From contig JAXHMM010000003.1 of NCBI GenBank assembly GCA_034521445.1, forward strand, positions 1 through 64,000: a stretch of DNA of 64,000 nt. The letters run 5' to 3'. Positions 49,702-62,508 of the stretch are shown in pieces. A program made the translations under genes and the position numbers. Every line of letters begins with the position of its first letter. Position 1 is the first letter of the stretch. A model generated the notes under the pieces. That model was not told where the DNA came from. It was given only the letters and a program-made list of their open reading frames with translations, and did not search any database. The DNA is from Balneolaceae bacterium (GTDB lineage Bacteria > Bacteroidota > Rhodothermia > Balneolales > Balneolaceae).

Positions 49702-50922
49702 ATGAACTCATCAGAACCTGAGGATATGATCATTCTTGTACTTGAAGAGACCTATCCCTGGTACCGGGGAGGAGTAAGCGAGTGGGTTTCGCATTACTTG
49801 GGAGCATTCCCGGGACAGACTTTCTCGCTGCTGCAGCTCACCACCACTCCGGGTGAGGTACCGTGCCGAAAGCCGATCTACCGGTTGCCGGATCACGTGA
49901 GGGGATCCTTCCGGCTACCGGTGCCCGTCGCGCGTGGCGGTGAGCTGCCCGCGGACGATGCCTGGGCAAGCCGGGCACTTGCTTCGTTGCCAGACCGGGC
50001 CCTGCGGGGCGCCCGACTGGTGCACGTGCTCAATACCGGGTTCGCCGGGCTTCTGGGACGCGCCCTGGCTTCCGCGAAGGAACTGCCGCTGGTTCTGACC
50101 GAACACGCCCTCTACCGGAAGGAGGCGATGGCCGGTGAGCACGCCCTCGAGTGTGGTTTTGAGCTGCCGGTTGCGGAGAGAGCCCGCCGCCGCATGGCAC
50201 GCTGGTTCCGTAACTCCGCAAGGAAGATCTACCGCAGCAGTCACCGGGTGATCAGCGTCTCCCGCTGCAACATGCCGAACCAACGTGACCTCGGTGCCCG
50301 GGACCCTATCTACATTCCCAATGGAGTGGACGCCTCCTGGCTGCTTGAGCGAAAGGTGCGCTCCGGCCGGCCCACCCTGGGCTGGATCGGACGCTGCGCC
50401 GGTCTCAAGGACCCGCTGCGCTTTTTTCGGGTGATGGAACAGATGGATGATGAGTGGCGGGGACTGATGATGCTGAGTTCTGCGGGCGAGGGGGAGTTGG
50501 AAGAGCGTGTGCGCACGGAGGGGGAGGACAACGGACGTTTATGCCTGGTGTGGGACCGCCCGGCCCGTGAGCACATCGACCAGATGGACGCCCTCTGCAT
50601 TACCAGCCGCAGCGAGTCGCAGCCCCTGGTGCTATTCGAAGGACTTGCCCGCCGCGTGTTGCCTGCCGGGTGGAGAGTGGGGGACGTAGGTCCACCGTTT
50701 GCGCTTACTGTGCCGAAAGGGTCCCCGCCATGGACTTTGGCCGGGCGTATAAACAGGCTGTGGAAGGAGCAGTCATGCTGGGAAAGAGCCCTAGATTCGC
50801 GCCGCGAGCTTCTGGAAAAGGAGCACACTTGGGAAGCGGTCTTCGGTCGCTATCGAAATGTGTTGGAACCCTGGCTGGATGGCTCTTCCCCTGGACCGGA
50901 GGGTGGCGCTTTCAGCAGGTAG
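49702..50922 (+). CDS. Glycosyltransferase GT4, PelF-like
   Basis: This 406-residue transferase opens with MIILVLEETYPWYRGGVSEWV, which parallels the EGAYPYVRSGGVSTW start of PelF in the same locus, so they are paralogues. Donor-side motifs: PNGVDASWLL, GWIGRCAGLKDPL and ITSRSESQPLVLFEGLA with the E-x7-E pair typical of retaining GT4 enzymes. It is about 110 residues shorter than PelF. It is convergent with the giant lipoprotein gene: their 3' ends overlap by 73 bp on opposite strands. Confidence 0.85.
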   Translation: MNSSEPEDMIILVLEETYPWYRGGVSEWVSHYLGAFPGQTFSLLQLTTTPGEVPCRKPIYRLPDHVRGSFRLPVPVARGGELPADDAWASRALASLPDRALRGARLVHVLNTGFAGLLGRALASAKELPLVLTEHALYRKEAMAGEHALECGFELPVAERARRRMARWFRNSARKIYRSSHRVISVSRCNMPNQRDLGARDPIYIPNGVDASWLLERKVRSGRPTLGWIGRCAGLKDPLRFFRVMEQMDDEWRGLMMLSSAGEGELEERVRTEGEDNGRLCLVWDRPAREHIDQMDALCITSRSESQPLVLFEGLARRVLPAGWRVGDVGPPFALTVPKGSPPWTLAGRINRLWKEQSCWERALDSRRELLEKEHTWEAVFGRYRNVLEPWLDGSSPGPEGGAFSR

Positions 50923-53900
50923 AGCGGTTCGGGAAAGACGCGCCGGGTGACCTCCCCGTGTCCCACCAGTCGCCAGAGCGCCCGAAGTTTGCCCCGCGCG
51001 TGGTGCCAGTCTCTCATGGCACGGGTGTCCACGTGATAGCGGCCCGCCACCGGGTCGGTGCGAACCTGCGGGTTATATCCCGGCAGTGCTCCTCTGAGCT
51101 CCTCCGCACGCTTTTGCGCGTCGTCCAGGTTGCGGTAGCTCCCGAAGCGGAACCGGTAGGTCGCAGGTGTAGCGGTAGTGCTGTCGAACTTCACCAACTC
51201 GTAATGGCCGTTCCCTGCCGGTGCAAGGGTGTCTGACGAGACCAGGCTGTCAGCCAGGGCGCGCGCCTCTTTACGGGACCCGAACGGGCGGCTGCGCAGC
51301 TGCAGGCTGTCGGTGCCCGGAAGGTAATAGGGCGAGAGAGTTTCGCGCAGACCGGCGGTGGTGTGCTGCCGCAGGGCCAGGGCTTGGCCCAGCCGCATGC
51401 CTGCGGGGAGGGCGACCTGCCATCTGGCGGTGGCGTGGGCTGTATCTATCGCAGCGGATGACGGCGGTCCGGCCGATGAAAGGGTCAGTAGTGCGGTGGA
51501 TTCGGTGGCGATGCTCCCGAGTTTTACCGTAGTGGTATCGGGACGGGAAATAAAACTCTCCCCGGTTTCGGTCCAGAGTCTGTAGGTGTCCGCCGGCAGT
51601 GCATCTACCGCAAAGGAGCCGTCATAGTAGGTACGGGTCCGTCCCCGGTAACCGTTGTCCACTCCGCGGTAATGAACGGTCAGACTGTGAAGAGAGGTTG
51701 AGGCGGTGGAGTCGGTCCTCACGCGTCCCGCAAGAGTATATCGACGGGTCTTCCCCCCGGAGCGTGGTCCCCTGTCGCTGGCGATTTGCGGGGAGGCCGG
51801 GGATACGACCGACTCGGGTGAAGATACGTCCCCGCTGCGGCGCCGGGGCTGCGGATCGGGGAGATCCTGCGGCAGGGCGTAGCTGAGGGTGAACTGCAGG
51901 CTGTTGGACCGGTAGAGACGGCTGGTGGAGAAGTAGCCCTCGGCCTGCAGGCTCAGCTCGTCGGTGAGGGGCGCGCTGACCGATGCGCTGAGCGATCCGA
52001 AAAAGGGCGTACGGCTGTCCCGGTTGCCGCGAAGCTGCACCTCCGCCGCGGTTTCGCCATCCGGCAGGATGTAGCGTGCCGATAGACCTGCACCGTTGGT
52101 CATTCTGTTTGGGGGAGCGTAGTAGGGAATCCCGGAAAGGCGAATCCGGCTGGCGCCTGCCACGGACGTGTAGCCAACCGGCGAGAGACTGAGGGGGCCG
52201 AACCGGCTCGGAAATACGTAGGCGGTGAGTCCCAGTTCCATGCTGAAATTGCGGTCGGTAAAGTAGCGCGGTCGCGCGTTCAGTCCCATGCGCAGGTCCC
52301 CTCCCAGCCAGCTGCGCTCGTAGTAGAGCTCTGCCTCCAATTCTGAGATGCCCAGCTCCACGGATTCGGGCGTGTAGACGGGCCGGAACCGGAGGCGCGC
52401 GGAAGCGTGGCTCTCTTCGGTGGACCGGGTGAGGCCGGCGCGAAGTACGGGAAAAAAGTGGCCGGACCGGACTCGGAATCCAGCGCCGGCGTGCAGCTCC
52501 ATGCCCTGCTCTGGAAAGGCGCGGGTGAACCGGTAGTCCAGCCGGAAGAGGCGGCTGCGCAGGATTTCCTGGCTGTTTTCGGAGCGAAGATAAAACTCCG
52601 ACAGGTTCAGGCTGTGCCGGTTGCGGGAGCCCCGGCGCAGGGTGGCGCCCAGGCCCATCTGGGCCAGGCGATGACCGAAATTGTCACTTTGCCAGGCTCC
52701 CAGACTGTATACGGACAGCTGCCTTCGGGAGGCATAATCACCGCGGAGGGCTGTGTGGAGGCTGTCGCTGAAAAAGGATGGATAAGAGCGATACAGGGAG
52801 AGACGTTGTTCATAGGGCAGGTAGGCGATCTCCCGGCGGAGCGTCCCGGAGAGGGTGTTCTCGCGTCCGGGCGCCAGAAAAGGTTCCAGTATGGACCAGG
52901 CTTCCTGCCGGTCGCCCCCGTAAAAGAGGGTGAGTCCCACGTAGGCCCTCAGGCTGTCGTCCTGCGGATACTGGCGAAGCGCCTGTAGGCCGGTCCGGCG
53001 GAATCGACCCGTCTGGCCGCTATTTTCCTGCCAGTAGAGCACTGTACGCCAGTCTATCCCGAAGGAGCGGTCTGCCCACGAGAGGGCCTCGCGGTAATCC
53101 TCCCGCTGTCCTGCATAAAGGTGGGCAAGTTCGTCGGCCCAGGGTCGCACCTGCCCGTAGGCGTGGGAGGGAAGGCGGTCGGCCACGGCGAGTATGGAAT
53201 CGGGAGATTCGTACCAGAAGGTGTGCTGCATCAGGTGTGCATAGAGGGTGTCGGAGCGGGGGTGCTTGCGGATCATGCTTCGTGTGGCCTCTCTGCCGTC
53301 AGACCAGGTGGAATCGACAGTCAGGATGCGGGCCGCACGGCGTAGAGCGGGCATGCTATCAGGATGTGCGCGCCAGGCGCGCCGAACCCACCGGTTGCGT
53401 ACGGCGGGACCGGGCCAGCCGGTGCGCGCAAGGAGCCGGCGCTGCATCTGCAGCGTGCGCTCACCGGGACTACGCTCCCAGCGCTGCTCGAGCAGGTCCC
53501 AGGCCTCTGAGGTACGGCCGTTCCAGCCGTAGAAGGTCAGTAGCCGCTCGACGGTCATGGGACGTGGATCCTCCCTCCAGAACACCTCGCGTTTCAGAAG
53601 GGGAATTAGCTCCCCGCTCCGTCCTGTACCGGCAGCGACTTGGACCAGCCGGTCCAGCAGGGCCGTAGAATCGGTCCGCTGGGAATCGGGCAGCGACTGG
53701 TAGTGTCCCCGAAGGCTGTCGAGAGAGGCCGCCGTATAGGTGAGGCCGGGGGAGAGGCGTTGCCTTCGAACCCGCTCGAAGCGATTGTAGCGGGCCTCGA
53801 GGGCCCCGGCGGCTAGGGCTTCGCGGTCATTTGCGCCCTTCGGGAAGGGCAGGAACAGGCTGTCGCGCCGGCTGCTGAATTGGTGAAGATGTCCGCTCCA

Positions 53901-55799
53901 AAGTGGATAATCCGCACGGCGCGTACTCAGGCTGTCCAGTCGACGGGAGACCCGTCTTTCATGCTCCTGCGGCACATAGACGAACCAGTCCTGTGCGCCT
54001 GCGCTGTCAGCGGGCGCCTTGCGCAGGGTCAGCAGCTCTCCTCCGAGCACTTCTCTTTGCACCTTGGTCTGCAAAGTACGGCGAACAGCGGGTGCCCCCT
54101 CCCGGGCAGCGACGAAGTCGAGGAGCGGGTACCAGTTGCGCGTCTTCTCCAGGCGCTCGCGAAAGATGGGTAGCATGCCGCGGGAACCGCCCTCGAGACC
54201 ATCCTTCCAGCCCAGGCCCCGGGGGTTGCGAGGTTCGTAGTGCTGGTAGCGGGTTTCCTGTTCTTCAATGTCGAAGACGTCGTCGGGGTGTACGAAATGG
54301 TTCCAGGCGCCCGTCAGCAGGAGCTGGCTCTGCTGCAGGAAAATAGAGCTGTTGTCGGAGGTAAATCCGTTGCTGGAGCGTGGATAGGCGAACAGCTGTC
54401 CCTGGCCGTACGGTTCGGGACCGAACTCCCTACGCTCGCCCTCCAGGAAGCTGCCGCCCATGATTGAGCTGGAGATGCGCAGCTCGGGCATGGCCTCGGT
54501 GAGCGCCCGGAACCCCACCTGGTCGATGTTATTGTGGGGCGGCACGTAGGTGACGGGATTGTCGCCCAGCTGTCGAATGAACCACATGCGGCGCGCCGAC
54601 TCAACCGAGCGCCGGATGGTTTCCTTGTCCGGCCAGTAGGAGGTGTCGGGAGATACATGGTTGTACCCGTGAAACCCCAGCTCGTGGCGGCTCTGCCGCA
54701 CGTTTTCCGCCAGCCGCTGGCTCACACGGATGTTTTCCCCGTTGCGGTTTACCCGTCCGACGTCCCATCCCGGGAAATCGAAATGGGGTCGCAATTTTTG
54801 GTTGTAGTTGAAAACCAGGGCGACTGTATAGGTCATATCGAGGGAGTCGGCCAGCCTCTTCATGTCGGGCCACCACTCGCGGTAGACAAATTCAGCCTGC
54901 GTGATGCCGTATTCCCGGGCGATGGGTTCCATCATCCGGTTGTAATATGGGGCGGGAAAGTCGTCCAGGAAGATGGTGGAAACGGCGGTTACAGGGTAGG
55001 GCAGTCCCGGCAGCGTTTTCAGGATTGTGGAGAAATAGAGAGAGCGAAATTGGCGGTCCGCCAAGGCAATGCTGTTGTAGAGGTAGACGCTGCCCGCTCC
55101 AAGAGTGCGCTCCAGCAGTACAGGGTAGGTGCGGGGATGAAGGGCAGTGGCGTGCACGTACACTTGTTCACGGAACTGCCCGCGGGGAAAGCCCCGGTGC
55201 CTTTGCCCTTCCCAGGCGAGAGAGTCGCCAATCCCGCCGAAGCCGGGAAAGGGATTTGACCGGAAAATAATGCCGCTTGCGGTGGTGTCGGCGGCGGGAT
55301 AGCGGTCCGCGCGAAGACCCTGCAGGAACATCATACGCTCGTCCCAGACCGGACGCGTAAGAATGAGACTGCCGCCCCGGTTTACATAATGCGCCAACTG
55401 CCTGATGTCCCCCGCTGTGAGCTCTTCCGTACGATCGGTGGCCAGCACGAGGGTGCGCACCGAGGACGGTATGCGGAGGGAGCCGTCGCCCAGACTGTTT
55501 CGGGTGAAGGAAATACGGGCGTATTCAAGCGTCCGGGCAATGTGGCGCCCGGTGGCGCTACCGGCGGAGTCCTCCGGATGGTCCACCAGCATGACGAGAG
55601 GCTCGGATACATCGCCGTGGTCCATAGCCTGACGCAGCATATCCCCGTAAGGATTTTCTTGCAGGGCATCCCCGCATCCCGCTAGTAGGAGCGGCAGGAG
55701 CAGCCCCGCCAGTAGGAGAGAGGCGAGAAGGCGCCGCGGCAAGCTACTCCGCAAGGATTGGCCAGGGCTTGTCGCTATGTGTGCGGTAAAGAGATTCAT
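50850..55799 (-). CDS. Giant Pel-type lipoprotein: PelA-like deacetylase + TPR + beta-barrel + SPOR-like end
   Basis: Up to 1649 residues. Lipobox LLLAGC (Cys42). Residues 60-270: amidotransferase-like fold (TLVLATDRTEELTAGDIRQL). Residues 272-560: DUF2194/CE4-type polysaccharide deacetylase, with metal Asp pair FLDDFP (279-280), FHGYNH (H377, H381), YVPPHNN and NHFVHPDD. About 686-1025: TPR-type helical repeats. About 1025-1310: alternating beta strands ending FTLSYALP, a predicted outer-membrane barrel. About 1350-1440: carboxypeptidase-regulatory-like sandwich. About 1544-1600: SPOR-like YRFRFGSYRNLDDAQKRA. In Pseudomonas these functions are divided between PelA and PelB. An alternative TTG start at 55742, right after the upstream stop and behind GCGGAG, gives a tidier signal peptide. 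Confidence 0.85.
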   Translation of the reverse strand: MNLFTAHIATSPGQSLRSSLPRRLLASLLLAGLLLPLLLAGCGDALQENPYGDMLRQAMDHGDVSEPLVMLVDHPEDSAGSATGRHIARTLEYARISFTRNSLGDGSLRIPSSVRTLVLATDRTEELTAGDIRQLAHYVNRGGSLILTRPVWDERMMFLQGLRADRYPAADTTASGIIFRSNPFPGFGGIGDSLAWEGQRHRGFPRGQFREQVYVHATALHPRTYPVLLERTLGAGSVYLYNSIALADRQFRSLYFSTILKTLPGLPYPVTAVSTIFLDDFPAPYYNRMMEPIAREYGITQAEFVYREWWPDMKRLADSLDMTYTVALVFNYNQKLRPHFDFPGWDVGRVNRNGENIRVSQRLAENVRQSRHELGFHGYNHVSPDTSYWPDKETIRRSVESARRMWFIRQLGDNPVTYVPPHNNIDQVGFRALTEAMPELRISSSIMGGSFLEGERREFGPEPYGQGQLFAYPRSSNGFTSDNSSIFLQQSQLLLTGAWNHFVHPDDVFDIEEQETRYQHYEPRNPRGLGWKDGLEGGSRGMLPIFRERLEKTRNWYPLLDFVAAREGAPAVRRTLQTKVQREVLGGELLTLRKAPADSAGAQDWFVYVPQEHERRVSRRLDSLSTRRADYPLWSGHLHQFSSRRDSLFLPFPKGANDREALAAGALEARYNRFERVRRQRLSPGLTYTAASLDSLRGHYQSLPDSQRTDSTALLDRLVQVAAGTGRSGELIPLLKREVFWREDPRPMTVERLLTFYGWNGRTSEAWDLLEQRWERSPGERTLQMQRRLLARTGWPGPAVRNRWVRRAWRAHPDSMPALRRAARILTVDSTWSDGREATRSMIRKHPRSDTLYAHLMQHTFWYESPDSILAVADRLPSHAYGQVRPWADELAHLYAGQREDYREALSWADRSFGIDWRTVLYWQENSGQTGRFRRTGLQALRQYPQDDSLRAYVGLTLFYGGDRQEAWSILEPFLAPGRENTLSGTLRREIAYLPYEQRLSLYRSYPSFFSDSLHTALRGDYASRRQLSVYSLGAWQSDNFGHRLAQMGLGATLRRGSRNRHSLNLSEFYLRSENSQEILRSRLFRLDYRFTRAFPEQGMELHAGAGFRVRSGHFFPVLRAGLTRSTEESHASARLRFRPVYTPESVELGISELEAELYYERSWLGGDLRMGLNARPRYFTDRNFSMELGLTAYVFPSRFGPLSLSPVGYTSVAGASRIRLSGIPYYAPPNRMTNGAGLSARYILPDGETAAEVQLRGNRDSRTPFFGSLSASVSAPLTDELSLQAEGYFSTSRLYRSNSLQFTLSYALPQDLPDPQPRRRSGDVSSPESVVSPASPQIASDRGPRSGGKTRRYTLAGRVRTDSTASTSLHSLTVHYRGVDNGYRGRTRTYYDGSFAVDALPADTYRLWTETGESFISRPDTTTVKLGSIATESTALLTLSSAGPPSSAAIDTAHATARWQVALPAGMRLGQALALRQHTTAGLRETLSPYYLPGTDSLQLRSRPFGSRKEARALADSLVSSDTLAPAGNGHYELVKFDSTTATPATYRFRFGSYRNLDDAQKRAEELRGALPGYNPQVRTDPVAGRYHVDTRAMRDWHHARGKLRALWRLVGHGEVTRRVFPEPLYLLKAPPSGPGEEPSSQGSNTFR

Positions 55800-57906
55800 T
55801 GATCAGGGCGTAGCCTGTTTCGTAGTTGAGCTGGTAGACAACGGATTGGGGGCTTTCGTAGTAGACCTCTGCGCTGCCCCCGCGCGCACGGAAATTTTTC
55901 ACCCAGCGGCGCATGGCGGACATGCGCTCCTGAAGGTGCGGTATATTGCTCTGCTGAAAGTCGTACGGCGGCTTGGCGATGAACAGAAAAACATGGGGAC
56001 TCGGGCGGTATTCATACTGCAGTTCCGCCCCGGGCATTCCGCCACCCTGCGCCTTGGTTCGGCGGTAGAGAGAGTCGAGCCGCGCATAATTCTGCAGGAA
56101 AAAGGGATAATCCAGGAAACGGCTGCGGTTCACGGTCAGGGGACGCATCACGGCCGGTGCAATAATCGAATAGCTTGTGGGTATGCGCTCGGAGGAGATG
56201 CGGTGAAAGGCCTGGTAGAAATTTCTGGGAAGAGCGTCCGGCGGCTGTTCGGCCGGGACACCGGTAGGACGCAGTCCGGAAAGCAGCGGAACCAGCACGA
56301 CGGCGGCAAGGAATGTGCGGGGCATCCAGCGCAGGACGTCCCTCGGCGCAGCCGCAGCGCGGGACAGCGTCAAGCTGCCTGCGTGTACCAGGTGGCGAAC
56401 CACCAGTCCGGCGGCTGCCGCTGCGGCAAGGGAAAGCAGCATCGGCACTTGCGGGAGACTGGTCCACTCTTCCCGCAGGGCGGGGGCGAGGCGGTTCAGG
56501 AGGGCCAGTGCCAGGAAAGCAAGGTAAAATATGCACTCGGCGGCGGAAAAGGCACGCACACCACCGTTCCAGATCCTTGCTGCTGCACGTGCGATGCAAC
56601 AGAAAACCCCGGCCCCCAGGATGCCCCAGAGAAGACGCTGCTGCAAGACGGTGAAGCCGAAATCCCCGAAATAGACCTCCGGGTGGAAAAGCTGGGAGAG
56701 AAAAAACTCCCGGTAGGCCATGCCGTAACCTTGTACCATTGCTGCGTAGGAGGCGGCGCTGAGAAGCGCTCCCGCTCCGAACAGCAACAGGCGCCTGCCC
56801 GTCCCGGATTCCCCGCGGTCCCGCCGGAAGGGTTTGGTGGCCAGGTGTTCCAGCAGGCAGAAGGCGCCACCCGCCAATAGCAGGCCGAAGGCCATAAGGT
56901 CTGTCAGCGAGGTGGCAAGCACCATGGCCGGCAACAGTATGCGCGCGGGTCCTGGTGGAACGGCCCGGGCCTCTTCCTCTCCCCGAAGCAACAGCAGGGC
57001 GCAGGCGCCAAGGGCGAGTCCAAGCACCAGCTGGGTGTAGTACATGTTATGGGTGTAGGCCTCGCCCGCCACCAGGAGCGGTGCCAGGGCCCAGACGGAA
57101 GCCGCGGCCAGTCCCCCGTAGTGGGCGGAGCGGGAAAAGGCCTCCTCTTCACCCAAGCCGCTGCCGAGCAAGCGACGTACCAGCCGGTAGATCAATAGTG
57201 AGCCCAGCAGTGCGGCCAGCCCTTCTGAAATGAGCAGCATGAACTCCACACGGGTCTGTGTCAGGTCGCTGAATACGCGGACCAGAGCGTGATAGCCGGG
57301 GAGCTGGTGTACATCGCCCAGGACGGTCTGCAGGCGGAGGTCCTTGACTTTCTGCACGGCACCAAACCAGCTGGCGGTGACCGACATGGGCTGCGAGGCG
57401 AGCGACCAGAATCGAAGCAGGGGGGCGGCGCAGGCGACCAGCAGCACCGTAAACAGGCGGCGACGCCTCGAGGCGTGAGGTGCCAGGAACACCCTGCGCA
57501 GCCGGCGGCGCGCCAGTCTCAGGTGGGAGCCCGGGTCCTGTTCGAGACGCTCCAACAGTCCCACGAGGCCCACCGTCAGTGCGCTGAACCTGCCGCGAAG
57601 CCAGCTGGGAAGCGAGGGCGCTTTTCCCTCTCCTGAAGTACGTCTTGCCCGCTGCCAGGCAGAGCCCACGGCCAGGATGGCCAGAGCGGCCACTATCCCG
57701 ACAGGACCATACAGACCTGAGAGGGCAAGGAGGAGTCCGGTCAGCATCAGCAGGCATGCCGTAATGCCGGCCCTCAGAAAGAATCCCCGTGCGGTGGTTC
57801 CGGCGCCCCCCCGGTACAGCAGGAGCGTGGCAAGGCAGGCAAGACCCGCCCAGGCGCCGGTACGCAGGACGGCGATAAGCAGTTCGTATTTCAGCTGGAC
57901 ATCCAT
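55744..57906 (-). CDS. Polytopic membrane protein of the Pel-like operon
   Basis: This 720-residue protein has about 12 hydrophobic helices in residues 1-540 and a soluble C-terminal domain (about 545-720) with RNFYQAFHRISSERIPTSY and YRPSPHVFLFIAKPPYDF, probably extracytoplasmic. No Pel family is recognised: it has no GGDEF, GAF or TPR that would mark PelD or PelE. The general plan resembles GT-C-type membrane glycosyltransferases, but I cannot see a convincing catalytic loop. It lies 4 bp after pelG and overlaps or abuts the giant lipoprotein gene, so it is an integral operon member. Confidence 0.8.
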   Translation of the reverse strand: MDVQLKYELLIAVLRTGAWAGLACLATLLLYRGGAGTTARGFFLRAGITACLLMLTGLLLALSGLYGPVGIVAALAILAVGSAWQRARRTSGEGKAPSLPSWLRGRFSALTVGLVGLLERLEQDPGSHLRLARRRLRRVFLAPHASRRRRLFTVLLVACAAPLLRFWSLASQPMSVTASWFGAVQKVKDLRLQTVLGDVHQLPGYHALVRVFSDLTQTRVEFMLLISEGLAALLGSLLIYRLVRRLLGSGLGEEEAFSRSAHYGGLAAASVWALAPLLVAGEAYTHNMYYTQLVLGLALGACALLLLRGEEEARAVPPGPARILLPAMVLATSLTDLMAFGLLLAGGAFCLLEHLATKPFRRDRGESGTGRRLLLFGAGALLSAASYAAMVQGYGMAYREFFLSQLFHPEVYFGDFGFTVLQQRLLWGILGAGVFCCIARAAARIWNGGVRAFSAAECIFYLAFLALALLNRLAPALREEWTSLPQVPMLLSLAAAAAAGLVVRHLVHAGSLTLSRAAAAPRDVLRWMPRTFLAAVVLVPLLSGLRPTGVPAEQPPDALPRNFYQAFHRISSERIPTSYSIIAPAVMRPLTVNRSRFLDYPFFLQNYARLDSLYRRTKAQGGGMPGAELQYEYRPSPHVFLFIAKPPYDFQQSNIPHLQERMSAMRRWVKNFRARGGSAEVYYESPQSVVYQLNYETGYALINESLYRTHSDKPWPILAE

Positions 57907-57910
57907 GGAA

Positions 57911-59620
57911 TCAGTAAGCAGAGTAGTAGTAATAGGGAAGATTGTCGAACATTTCGAGGAGGTAATAGACTGTCAGCCCAGCCAAGGTGAATCCGCCGGC
58001 AACCAGTCCCAGTACCGCGAACTCATAGGAGATGAGACGGCTGCAGGCGAAACCGACCGATGCGTTCACCAGCAGGGCAGCTGTCATAGCCCGCACCACC
58101 TTGGCCGGCCTGCCTATGGTGAAAAAGAAGAGCGTGTTCATGAGTCCAAGTGCCGTAAACAGGTAACCCAAGCTGGCCAGCCAGAAAACCGGATACAGCA
58201 CCTCGTTGGAGAAAAAATCGTGAATGAGACGCACCTCGTCCGCAAATCCCCTCAGGCTGTGCACGGCAAAGTAGCTTGCGAGGATGGAAGAGACGGCCAC
58301 GCCCAGCAGTATAAGCACCTGCCGGCGGTAGAAATGCCGGAAGAACGCCTTGAAACGGTGTTGGGAGGTGCGGGACAGCTTCTCCTGCAGGGGAAGCACG
58401 AGCTCGGAGAAGCGGTTGATGCTGTATTCCGAGGAGGCCGTGATGAGAATGAGTCCTATAAGTGCCCAGTCCATGCCCAGTTCATAAGATGTGTCGAACC
58501 AGAGCGGATATTCGGGAGGAGGTGAGCCAGCCGACCAGGCCATGAGCCTGTCCATGAAAAGAAAAAGAAAATAGAGGGTTCCGTAGAGGAAATAGCGCCG
58601 GTTCTGGTAGAACTTCTGTGCAAGAGGGGGCAGCGAGAAATCCTTGCCGTTGTTGCCGTTATCCTTTTGCTGTTGCCGGTCCAGAATGCGCAGCCCATGA
58701 ACCGCCATGGCAAGAGCGGACAGGAGCATTCCAGTCCAGTGCGAGAGGTATATGCCCCATCCAAGCACCTCCATACCCAGTATCACGGCCGCGGTGCCGC
58801 CCAGGGTGGCATAGAGAATGGCCATGTAGCGCTCCATGGCGTAGAGCAGCGTGGAGGCCAGCAGCCAGGTGCCGATAAAAAACATGTAAGCGTTGCTCAT
58901 GATGAGCATGCTGTGCGGGAAGAGGGGCGTGAGCAGGTTAAGCACGTGCAGTCCCAGCGCAGCGGCCAGCAACAGTCCCACACCCATTCCCAACACTTGG
59001 CGGGCGGTACGCGCGGCCAGGCCGGGGGTATCGCGCTGCAGGTAGGAGGTGATTTCCCGGCTCGCGTAGAAGGAGAGTCCCCCGGTTACCAGAAAGGCAC
59101 TTATAGTGCCCAGCGCCACCATCGTAGCCTGAAACTCGTTGAAAAAGAGCCAGGCCCAGAGTGAATAGGAGACCAGCACCACGGAGAGTATCTGTGAGAA
59201 AAGGGGTGCCATGCCCAGGAGTCCTTTGCCGAAATGGCGCAGGAAGGTCCGGATCAGGGAACCCTCCCCGGGAAGATCCAGCGCCGGGGCTTTGTGCATG
59301 CCGTTCCTGCGCCTGCCGTTATTACGGGGGATGACAGGCGCTTCTGCAGTGCCGTTTCCCCCCTCCATTGGGTTGCCCGGTTGTGCTGACCGCTCTCTGG
59401 CCAACTCGTGTCGGATGTAATCGTACACCCGGTCTGCCAGCTGGAAAACGGAATCGTAGCCGTAGGTCTCCCGCACCTTGCGGTCATTGAGTCCCAGGAG
59501 CTCCAGCTGGATCGCCACGGAATACTTGGAGCTGGGCTCTTCCACCGATGCGCACACCTTCTCCCCCAGGTCGGCGACGACCTCGCTCTTCGTTTTGCTA
59601 TGCAGAAGCGCTTCGGCCAT
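57911..59620 (-). CDS. pelG: PelG-like polysaccharide transporter
   Basis: This 569-residue membrane protein has a cytosolic N-terminal part (1-about 135; VADLGEKVCASVEEPSSKYSV then VFQLADRVYDYIRHEL). About 12 helices follow (MVALGTISAFLVTGGLSFYASREI and others), ending in MFDNLPYYYYSAY. PelG is the MOP-fold flippase-like partner of PelF; the P. aeruginosa protein is about 456 residues, so the N-terminal extension is extra. Identification rests on topology, end motif and position 2 bp after pelF. It should move the growing chain over the inner membrane. Confidence 0.82.
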   Translation of the reverse strand: MAEALLHSKTKSEVVADLGEKVCASVEEPSSKYSVAIQLELLGLNDRKVRETYGYDSVFQLADRVYDYIRHELARERSAQPGNPMEGGNGTAEAPVIPRNNGRRRNGMHKAPALDLPGEGSLIRTFLRHFGKGLLGMAPLFSQILSVVLVSYSLWAWLFFNEFQATMVALGTISAFLVTGGLSFYASREITSYLQRDTPGLAARTARQVLGMGVGLLLAAALGLHVLNLLTPLFPHSMLIMSNAYMFFIGTWLLASTLLYAMERYMAILYATLGGTAAVILGMEVLGWGIYLSHWTGMLLSALAMAVHGLRILDRQQQKDNGNNGKDFSLPPLAQKFYQNRRYFLYGTLYFLFLFMDRLMAWSAGSPPPEYPLWFDTSYELGMDWALIGLILITASSEYSINRFSELVLPLQEKLSRTSQHRFKAFFRHFYRRQVLILLGVAVSSILASYFAVHSLRGFADEVRLIHDFFSNEVLYPVFWLASLGYLFTALGLMNTLFFFTIGRPAKVVRAMTAALLVNASVGFACSRLISYEFAVLGLVAGGFTLAGLTVYYLLEMFDNLPYYYYSAY

Positions 59621-59622
59621 AA

Positions 59623-61182
59623 CTAGGTTGCCAGTTTGCGGACTACGGGATGCCGGAGTTCCTTCTTCAGAGGGGTGCGTAAGGCGTTCTTCTGTTCGAG
59701 GTAGCGCCGGTGGTAGTTTTCAAGGGTGATGCGGGCACTGTAGCGGTTGACCGCATGGCGGCGGGACCGTGCGCCGAACTCCTCTCGCAGCGAGTCGTTC
59801 TCCAGGAGCTCCACTACGCTGGCGGCCAGTCCCTCCACGTCCCCTGGTTCATTCACCCTTCCGCATTCGCCCAGCACCTCGCGGACACCCCCCACGTCGG
59901 TAGCCACCACGGGCCGCCCGCAGGCCATCGATTCCAGTACGGTATAGGGAGCGCCCTCGGACACCGAGGTGAGGATGGAAAGATCACCCTCGTTGAAGGC
60001 CTCCGCCGGGCTGTTGTGAAATCCTCCGATGATAAAGTGTTCGGAGAGGTTCAGCTCCTCGATGAGCGCTTCGCAGCGGCGTGTGTATTCGGGGTCGGCC
60101 CGGTCGTTGCCGTAAAGCAGGAAACGTACCGTGGGTACAGATTCCCGCACCACATCGCAGGTTCTGATCATGGTTTTGATGTCTTTGAGCTCTACCAGGT
60201 TGGCCAGGGCCACGACCGTGGGACGCTCGCTCTCCCCGCCTGCCTCTTCCATGGGACGGAATTTCTCCACGTCTACCCCGTTGATGATGGGGTGGATGCG
60301 GTCTTCCCTCGCACCGAACTCTTTGAGCCAGCCGGAGTGGGTGCCGGTGACCGGGGTAAGAAGGTCGGCGTGCCGGTAGGCCGCCTTGCTGATTACGATG
60401 CACAGATTGGAGAGGAGCGTGCGCGCATGCAGGCCGAAGGCCTTGTCCTCATCCAGGGCCTTGATACGTTCCCGCAGCCAGATGCCGTGGTCGGTGACCA
60501 GATAGGGCGTTCCGTACTCGAATTTTCCGAGGAGGGAGGGCAGGGCGGGAAAGCCTGCCGATGAGGAATGCGACACGTCCACATGCGGTACCGATACGTT
60601 CAGCGGCATCAGAAAGTGGTAGAGCCTACGCAGTCCCATGGTGGCGTTCAGAAGGTTGAACTCCCCGGTGGCCTGCTCCGGCAGGGCAGTGCGGTAGTGG
60701 TGTGATAACTGGCGATTGAAGATCTCCCAGGTCTGCACATGCCGGAGAGTGTTCTTGTAGTCGTGCCGGCGGAAATAGCGCCAGAGACCGTACAACAGTT
60801 CGCCTACCTGCTCCGGATCGCAGGCGAGGGGACGGAAGAGGCAGGCCAGAAAATCGCGAAAAAGGGGGATGAACTGCTCCTCCAGCGCAGTCTCGTCCAG
60901 GTTCTCCTTGAGGCGCGCGATGCTCCGGAAATCCCGGGCGGGTCTGCAGTTTGCGGCGGGCATCTCAGATCCCCACAGAGGCACCTTGGTGATGTGCCTG
61001 ATGTTGCGCGGGAGGTCGTATTTCAGCTCGATGTCGGGATGGTCTACCAGACAGTAGAGGTCGAAGTCGACCTCCGAATCGAGACCGTCACAGAGGATTT
61101 CAGCCCAGGTGGAGACACCTCCGCTGCGCACGTAGGGGTAGGCGCCCTCCGTCTGGAGCATGACATGGACTGGTTCGGGCAT
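59623..61182 (-). CDS. pelF: PelF glycosyltransferase
   Basis: A 519-residue GT4 enzyme; P. aeruginosa PelF is 507. It starts MPEPVHVMLQTEGAYPYVRSG, the N-terminal PelF signature EGxYPYxxGGVSxW. Further landmarks: VDVSHSSSAGFPALPSLL, TDHGIWLRERI, INGVDVEKF and the donor site EGAPYTVLESMACGRPVVAT with the E-x7-E pair and DVGG. PelF polymerises the amino-sugar chain of Pel in the cytosol using UDP-linked N-acetylhexosamine. Followed by pelG with a 2-bp gap. Confidence 0.93.
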   Translation of the reverse strand: MPEPVHVMLQTEGAYPYVRSGGVSTWAEILCDGLDSEVDFDLYCLVDHPDIELKYDLPRNIRHITKVPLWGSEMPAANCRPARDFRSIARLKENLDETALEEQFIPLFRDFLACLFRPLACDPEQVGELLYGLWRYFRRHDYKNTLRHVQTWEIFNRQLSHHYRTALPEQATGEFNLLNATMGLRRLYHFLMPLNVSVPHVDVSHSSSAGFPALPSLLGKFEYGTPYLVTDHGIWLRERIKALDEDKAFGLHARTLLSNLCIVISKAAYRHADLLTPVTGTHSGWLKEFGAREDRIHPIINGVDVEKFRPMEEAGGESERPTVVALANLVELKDIKTMIRTCDVVRESVPTVRFLLYGNDRADPEYTRRCEALIEELNLSEHFIIGGFHNSPAEAFNEGDLSILTSVSEGAPYTVLESMACGRPVVATDVGGVREVLGECGRVNEPGDVEGLAASVVELLENDSLREEFGARSRRHAVNRYSARITLENYHRRYLEQKNALRTPLKKELRHPVVRKLAT

Positions 61183-61331: not shown

Positions 61332-62186
61332 TTATTTCCTGTACTGATACACCTGTTCCAGAGTATCGAGCTGGATGTTGCTGATGTAATACGGCTGGTT
61401 GAGGGTGTCCAGTCTTTGAATAACTTCGCGTTTCATGTCCTCCTCCACCGCATAATCAAGAATCAATACCGGTTTGCCCAGCGTGTCGGCAAAGGAGCGC
61501 ATCCAGCGCACTGTTTCCCTGTAGTCCTGCACGCTGCGCAAGTTGTAGTTTTCGGTTTCAAAATCGTAATGGGTGGCGATGTCCTCTATCATAATGGCGT
61601 CCACCAACGGGTCGGTGTCCTGCAGCAGGAAAAGTCCCCTGTTCTGTATGATATATGCCTCGGGATAGCGTTCGTTCAAGGTCCGGATCATGCCCAGCAT
61701 CTCGTCCTGTAGGTGGCTGCGTTCGGTATACGGCGCTACTCCGTCGATGGTGTCAAGGAGTAGTCCGTCGAAACCCTTTGCCATGATGCTACGCGCCACC
61801 TCGTCCAGCAGAATAGACCGTGCCTTTGGCGAGGAGAGATCGATATAGGGGCTGTTCCAGTTTTCGTTGACCCCCAGGAAGCCGATCTCACGCAAGAGTG
61901 GGTAATACCAGCGGTGGGGATTGACCTCGCTCATGCTGATGTAGCCGATGATGCGCGTGTCGGTCTTTGCCAGTTCGCTGACCTCCGATACGGTATACTG
62001 TTCGGGTTCCAGGACCACCAGGTCGTAATCCTCGATCTCGGAGGGGGTCACCTTGTCGTAGTCCACGCCGTAGTTCATCAGTATCTGGTCGGTGCATCCC
62101 ATAGTGGCTGTAATAAGACAGACGATAAGAGCCGCCCACCAGGCGCGCGCCTTATTTAGAGTGTATAAAGGGCCGGCCTCTTTCAC
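61332..62186 (-). CDS. GH114-like lipoprotein (PelA hydrolase-type)
   Basis: About 284 residues from a GTG at 62186; ATG starts at 62243 and 62336 are also in frame, but the GTG gives a normal lipoprotein signal ending TATMGC. The domain is the TM1410/GH114 barrel: DLVVLEPEQYTVSEV, IIGYISMSEVNPHRW, GFDGLLLDTIDG (putative catalytic Asp), AYIIQNRG and VDAIMIEDIATHYDF (putative Glu). This family includes endo-alpha-1,4-polygalactosaminidase and the N-terminal hydrolase of PelA. It is the first gene of the Pel-like operon, 149 bp before pelF. Confidence 0.85.
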   Translation of the reverse strand: MKEAGPLYTLNKARAWWAALIVCLITATMGCTDQILMNYGVDYDKVTPSEIEDYDLVVLEPEQYTVSEVSELAKTDTRIIGYISMSEVNPHRWYYPLLREIGFLGVNENWNSPYIDLSSPKARSILLDEVARSIMAKGFDGLLLDTIDGVAPYTERSHLQDEMLGMIRTLNERYPEAYIIQNRGLFLLQDTDPLVDAIMIEDIATHYDFETENYNLRSVQDYRETVRWMRSFADTLGKPVLILDYAVEEDMKREVIQRLDTLNQPYYISNIQLDTLEQVYQYRK

Positions 62187-62508
62187 GTGAAGTTTGTCGG
62201 TTTTTGCATTCAGAGGATTCCTTTTCGACCCTGCCTGTATCATCAGGCCGTTGGCGACGGACGGGTTGCGCCCGGTCTCGCCTGCGTTCACCTGAAGCTG
62301 CGCGACTATTGCAGACAGAAATTTAAGCCATTCCAACCTAAACAGATGTGACTGATTAGGGGCAGGTACGTGACAATTAAAAACTTAAAAATTTTATAAT
62401 TTTTCCTTTTTGCCAGAATGTGATTAATTGAGGCCAAAACGACAGAAGTGCGGGATCATCATCCCATCCCTGGGCAGGGATCAACCAAAAAGAGTGATCA
62501 TACTGCCC

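Follow-up and report, generated by a model that had tools for sequence, protein, structure and literature searches.

Within the 64,000 nucleotides of Balneolaceae DNA analysed here (positions 1 to 64,000 of contig JAXHMM010000003.1, hereafter the window), a 720-residue membrane protein encoded on the minus strand (55744..57906) appears to represent an undescribed family of conserved GT-C-fold components of a Pel-type exopolysaccharide system that has no detectable PelD. We consider it very probable that this family has a GT-C fold and is linked to Pel-type loci, and give about an even chance that the protein is a GT-C-derived, probably non-catalytic inner-membrane component of the PelF/PelG machine. 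A GT-C-fold protein of Pel loci was not found described in the open-access papers searched.

The open reading frame of the initial annotation was confirmed in both coordinates and length. It has an ATG start, runs from 57906 to 55744, is present in a single copy in the genome and has a third-position GC content that resembles that of its neighbours. These neighbours form with it an operon on the minus strand, in the order GH114 glycoside hydrolase, PelF, PelG-like exporter, 720-residue protein and DUF2194 lipoprotein. While GH114 lies 149 nt ahead of PelF, PelF and PelG are separated by 2 nt, and the gene for the 720-residue protein, which begins 4 nt past the PelG-like gene and overlaps by 56 nt the gene for the DUF2194 protein (1649 aa), therefore belongs to a tight operon. 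Pfam returned no family for the protein at E<=1, and its only NCBIfam match was by chance. One relative (L023) matches DUF6541 (PF20176) over ~330 residues (E 4.3e-6), but it scores 25.7 bits against a curated cut-off of 29 and the protein of the window has no match to this family. Sequence searches of the PDB, whether with the protein or with a profile of its family, were likewise empty, so that the evidence for a fold comes from structure comparison.

Structures were predicted by AlphaFold for the window protein itself, which yielded a fair model from 16 sequences (pLDDT 71, pTM 0.74), and for a Balneolaceae relative, which yielded a good model from 36 sequences (pLDDT 82.3, pTM 0.84). In a Foldseek search, the first match of the window model, and the only one with a probability of 1.00, was the arabinosyltransferase AftA. 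For the relative's model, the first 18 matches in the PDB (E 5.5e-6 to 4.2e-2, probability 0.99-1.00) were either named GT-C enzymes (OST/STT3, PglB, DPY19, AftA, ArnT, AglB, Pmt4 and EmbA-EmbB) or chains that belong to translocon assemblies with OST, and the next match had a probability of 0.07. The comparison with GT-C enzymes that had been proposed as a check thus came out in favour of this fold, with the relative's model matching GT-C enzymes only. With low TM-scores against GT-C structures (0.2-0.46), however, this is a distant version of the fold.

In both models, the predicted membrane fold is of the GT-C kind, its first core helix being followed by two juxtamembrane helices. In the window model, there are 14 hydrophobic helices (3 + 11), rather than the about 12 counted initially. 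The predicted layout, all of it on the minus strand, starts with an N-terminal extension of three helices that precede the GT-C core (residues 1-90, 57637..57906), followed by a basic linker with 10 K/R and 4 D/E that is predicted to be cytoplasmic (residues 91-144, 57475..57636). Then come the first core helix, which contains the invariant Arg165 (residues 145-171, 57394..57474), and extracytoplasmic loop 1 with juxtamembrane helices 178-191 and 204-216 (residues 172-219, 57250..57393). Ten further helices lead to the C-terminal domain (residues ~560-720, 55747..56229), an alpha/beta domain of ~160 residues, which is extracytoplasmic in the predicted topology, as the initial annotation had it. 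The family therefore shares with GT-C_A enzymes (PglB/STT3, ArnT, AftA, Pmt4, DPY19) the predicted core helices, the two juxtamembrane helices of loop 1 and a predicted periplasmic C-terminal domain, but differs from them by having no sequence match, three extra N-terminal helices and no conserved catalytic Asp.

How firmly can the surrounding genes be called Pel? PelF, the GT4 polymerase (59623..61182, minus strand), passes the cut-off of the equivalog model NF038011 (147.6 vs 100 bits), and GH114 (61332..62336, minus strand; PF03537, 48.9 bits) is the counterpart of the PelA hydrolase domain. The exporter (57911..59620, minus strand) does not match PF16933 even at E<=10, but five of its orthologs pass the cut-off of this model along most of its length, which identifies the window copy as a remote PelG. 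The DUF2194 lipoprotein (50850..55799, minus strand; PF09960, 202.9 bits), in which an LLAGC lipobox is readable, consists of an N-terminal part that resembles the PelA deacetylase, a long C-terminal part and a SPOR domain (22.4 bits). It gave no alignment with the single PelA to which it was compared, and its family was negative against one PelB in hhalign. DUF2194 is also found in a Fusobacterium pel-type locus, together with PelF and PelG-sized genes. That the locus makes a non-Pel polymer, of whose pathway the 720-residue protein would be a normal part, is a reading that the remoteness of PelG and the failed alignment with PelA would accommodate; in view of the PelF score, the five PelG orthologs, the GH114 gene and the Fusobacterium locus, we regard it as improbable.

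The DUF2194 protein of the window is longer than that of relatives (1649 vs ~1300 aa), the extra C-terminal part containing a weak carboxypeptidase-regulatory-like stretch and the SPOR domain. In addition, a second, short PelF-like GT4 protein (49702..50922, plus strand; PF11997, 94.9 bits), which falls below the NF038011 cut-off (90.2 vs 100 bits), is encoded by a gene that converges on the operon in the window and lies directly before PelF in relatives.

The link between the 720-residue family and Pel-type loci is best seen in its distribution. Searching with the window protein itself identified relatives with 25-26% identity in 5 of 39 genomes (one of which is its own), while a relative's sequence detected the family in 23 of 296 phylum genomes and a profile in 27 of 395. 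A PelG-like profile picked out exactly the same 27 of the 395 genomes, which come from five families, a count that carries no significance value and includes related, hence non-independent, genomes. The outcome that had been named beforehand as a refutation, membership of a housekeeping family that is frequent away from Pel loci, was not observed. A scan of named genomes with an alignment of relatives as query gave 32 loci, in Balneolaceae (Balneola, Gracilimonas and Fodinibius), with which the window genome shares its family, in Flavobacterium and in unclassified Bacteroidetes. Within contig limits, all 32 have the order GH114, 720-residue family protein, DUF2194, with an overlap or a gap of a few bases at the last junction, and in Flavobacterium the five-gene set of PelF, PelG, GH114, the family protein and DUF2194 stands alone. 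Deviations from this arrangement are seen in the window, where GH114 has been relocated to a position ahead of PelF, and in a distant locus (L096), which opens with GH114 and in which regulators separate the family protein from DUF2194. The match with PelG-containing genomes and the constant gene order tie the family to Pel-type loci in this sample, and its recurrence in this position in over 30 loci goes beyond chance.

The other side of the finding is what these loci do without. To our knowledge, in all Pel systems studied so far, whether Gram-negative or Gram-positive, the polymer requires both PelD and PelE. The claim that the locus has no recognisable PelD holds, since the best score of the PelD profile anywhere in the window genome is 12.9 bits, under a cut-off of 27, whereas the Pseudoalteromonas pel plasmid that served as positive control reaches 36.8 bits. 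Across the 395 phylum genomes, the same profile returned nothing above cut-off. In Pseudomonas aeruginosa and Bacillus cereus, the Pel synthase complex is PelDEFG (PMC12345266, PMC7112168). The window locus resembles these systems in bringing together PelF, PelG, GH114 and a putative deacetylase gene, but differs from them in that PelD is not detected and a GT-C-fold protein, which is not PelE, is present. Could this protein nonetheless be a very divergent PelE or PelD? Its genomic position would suit such an identity, which was rejected because profile comparisons (for PelE, made with the 720-residue protein alone) give probabilities of 0.1-0.2 percent, and which is contradicted by the fold and by the difference in size, so that we consider it extremely unlikely. 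Another candidate for a PelD stand-in, the 508-aa gene that precedes pelF in the loci of Flavobacterium, was also discarded, as its sequence reads as a helicase.

If PelD is missing, control must come from elsewhere, and the initial annotation had accordingly suggested a new regulator without c-di-GMP. For the 720-residue protein to be such a synthase regulator, sensing something other than c-di-GMP, is a highly doubtful prospect that gains from the missing PelD but finds no support in the protein, which has no recognisable sensory or nucleotide-binding domain. The loci of relatives moreover carry separate genes that look regulatory, either a GAF-HD protein or a SpoIIE/STAS/HATPase set. In most Balneolaceae relatives, an HD-domain protein of ~540 aa with HDIG and HHEW motifs, which is partly HD-GYP-like and has a GAF domain in L096, is encoded between PelG and GH114 (L006:6929-8554, L007:12004-13626, L008:12174-13748 and L049:7536-9167) and may be the regulator that substitutes for PelD. 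In the window genome, the GAF-HD protein was rejected as a PelD stand-in, since it was not found by a search that was positive in controls. In the distant locus (L096:5124-15898), a HATPase, a GAF-SpoIIE phosphatase, a GAF-HD protein and a STAS-like small protein are found among pel-type genes, and may form a partner-switching set that controls polymer synthesis.

Is the 720-residue protein still an enzyme? The initial proposal of a GT-C type glycosyltransferase fared well for the fold and poorly for the activity. In GT-C_A enzymes, the first juxtamembrane helix has a conserved, essential Asp at its tip (PMC12041299). In the 720-residue family, this position, which was placed from helix boundaries and the alignment rather than by superposition, is not conserved (R16 D12 S4 A2 E1 N1) and is Ala178 in the window, and a second candidate column six residues earlier (D16 N14 H4 Q1 S1) has Gln172. 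Most Balneolaceae members have Arg and Asn in these two columns and Flavobacterium members have Asp in both. No conserved acidic column is present in loop 1 of the family alignment, and in the window protein acidic residues are entirely missing from residue 145 to residue 188. A further loss in this copy concerns a DxDQLN loop motif, whose DxD is nearly invariant in the other members but has been replaced here (S483, P485), and Gln692 stands where the others have Glu. Of the five core proteins, the 720-residue protein diverges most from its relatives (21% identity, vs 30-42% for the others); among Balneolaceae, the protein is conserved about as much as GH114 and DUF2194. What is invariant in all members is Arg165 and, in the C-terminal cap, Tyr600, Phe603, Tyr607 and Asp611. 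Taken together, the unconserved Asp, the lost acidic residues and the divergence favour a non-catalytic role in this genome, where the protein most likely has no transferase activity any more.

With Asp in both columns, the Flavobacterium sequences may point to an enzymatic function of the whole family, which leads to the most serious competing explanation. The protein could be a GT-C glycosyltransferase that is still active and takes sugar from a polyprenyl-phosphate donor to decorate or prime the Pel-like polymer on the periplasmic side. A different acid would then do the work of the classical Asp, and the copy in the window might be a member in decay. In favour of this reading are, besides the predicted fold and the Flavobacterium residues, the invariant Asp611 of the cap and the near-invariance of the DxD loop motif in all but the window copy, and GT-C enzymes are known to make periplasmic additions to polysaccharides (PMC11127046). 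The three-component systems concerned (GT136, Gtr; PMC11127046) indeed resemble the Pel-type loci in having a GT-C-fold membrane protein in a polysaccharide locus, but differ in that neither a synthase for the lipid-linked donor (a polyprenyl-phosphate sugar) nor a small flippase was recognised among the core locus genes, although these could be encoded elsewhere. Since the lack of a conserved acid in loop 1, and of any acid between residues 145 and 188 in the window copy, also speaks against catalysis, we regard an active enzyme as unlikely, yet worth keeping in mind.

Among the roles first suggested, that of the missing inner-membrane scaffold fits best, in light of the strict co-occurrence with PelG and the failure to detect PelD, and the absence of the usual catalytic residue in the window copy makes it possible for such a scaffold to stand in place of PelD/PelE. 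On this reading, an exopolysaccharide machine of PelF and PelG, of a Bacteroidota type, has the protein as its obligate partner, which is built on a GT-C_A fold to which three N-terminal helices have been added. PelF would build the chain and PelG would export it, while the 720-residue protein would sit beside PelG in the inner membrane and keep the complex together, through presumed contacts with PelF and PelG. Its former substrate groove and periplasmic cap could grip the emerging polymer, which might be handed over to the DUF2194 lipoprotein that is encoded next and that presumably modifies the polymer in the periplasm. It would thus occupy the structural place of PelD/PelE without binding c-di-GMP, and PelD/c-di-GMP control would be absent from the Pel-type system of the window.

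The broadest form of this proposal, that a GT-C glycosyltransferase was turned into a non-catalytic scaffold or conduit that replaces both PelD and PelE, in a whole lineage of Pel synthases without a c-di-GMP receptor, is put forward tentatively, as we hold it to be somewhat less probable than not. It nevertheless outlines why these loci matter. The loci shared by Balneolaceae and Flavobacterium, in which PelD is undetectable and a GT-C-fold protein never missing, suggest that a Pel synthase can be assembled around another membrane protein, and if the scaffold reading is true, a candidate family of pseudo-glycosyltransferases would be added to polysaccharide export.

Two minor observations concern the genomes that were surveyed. 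In Fodinibius-type genomes, a second, broken copy of PelG and the 720-residue family protein is found beside the intact locus (L045:1-6000; G384:C6:85306-88772). Finally, a contig filed under a Bifidobacterium breve MAG (L062) carries a Flavobacterium-type locus with the same flanking genes, and is probably mis-binned.
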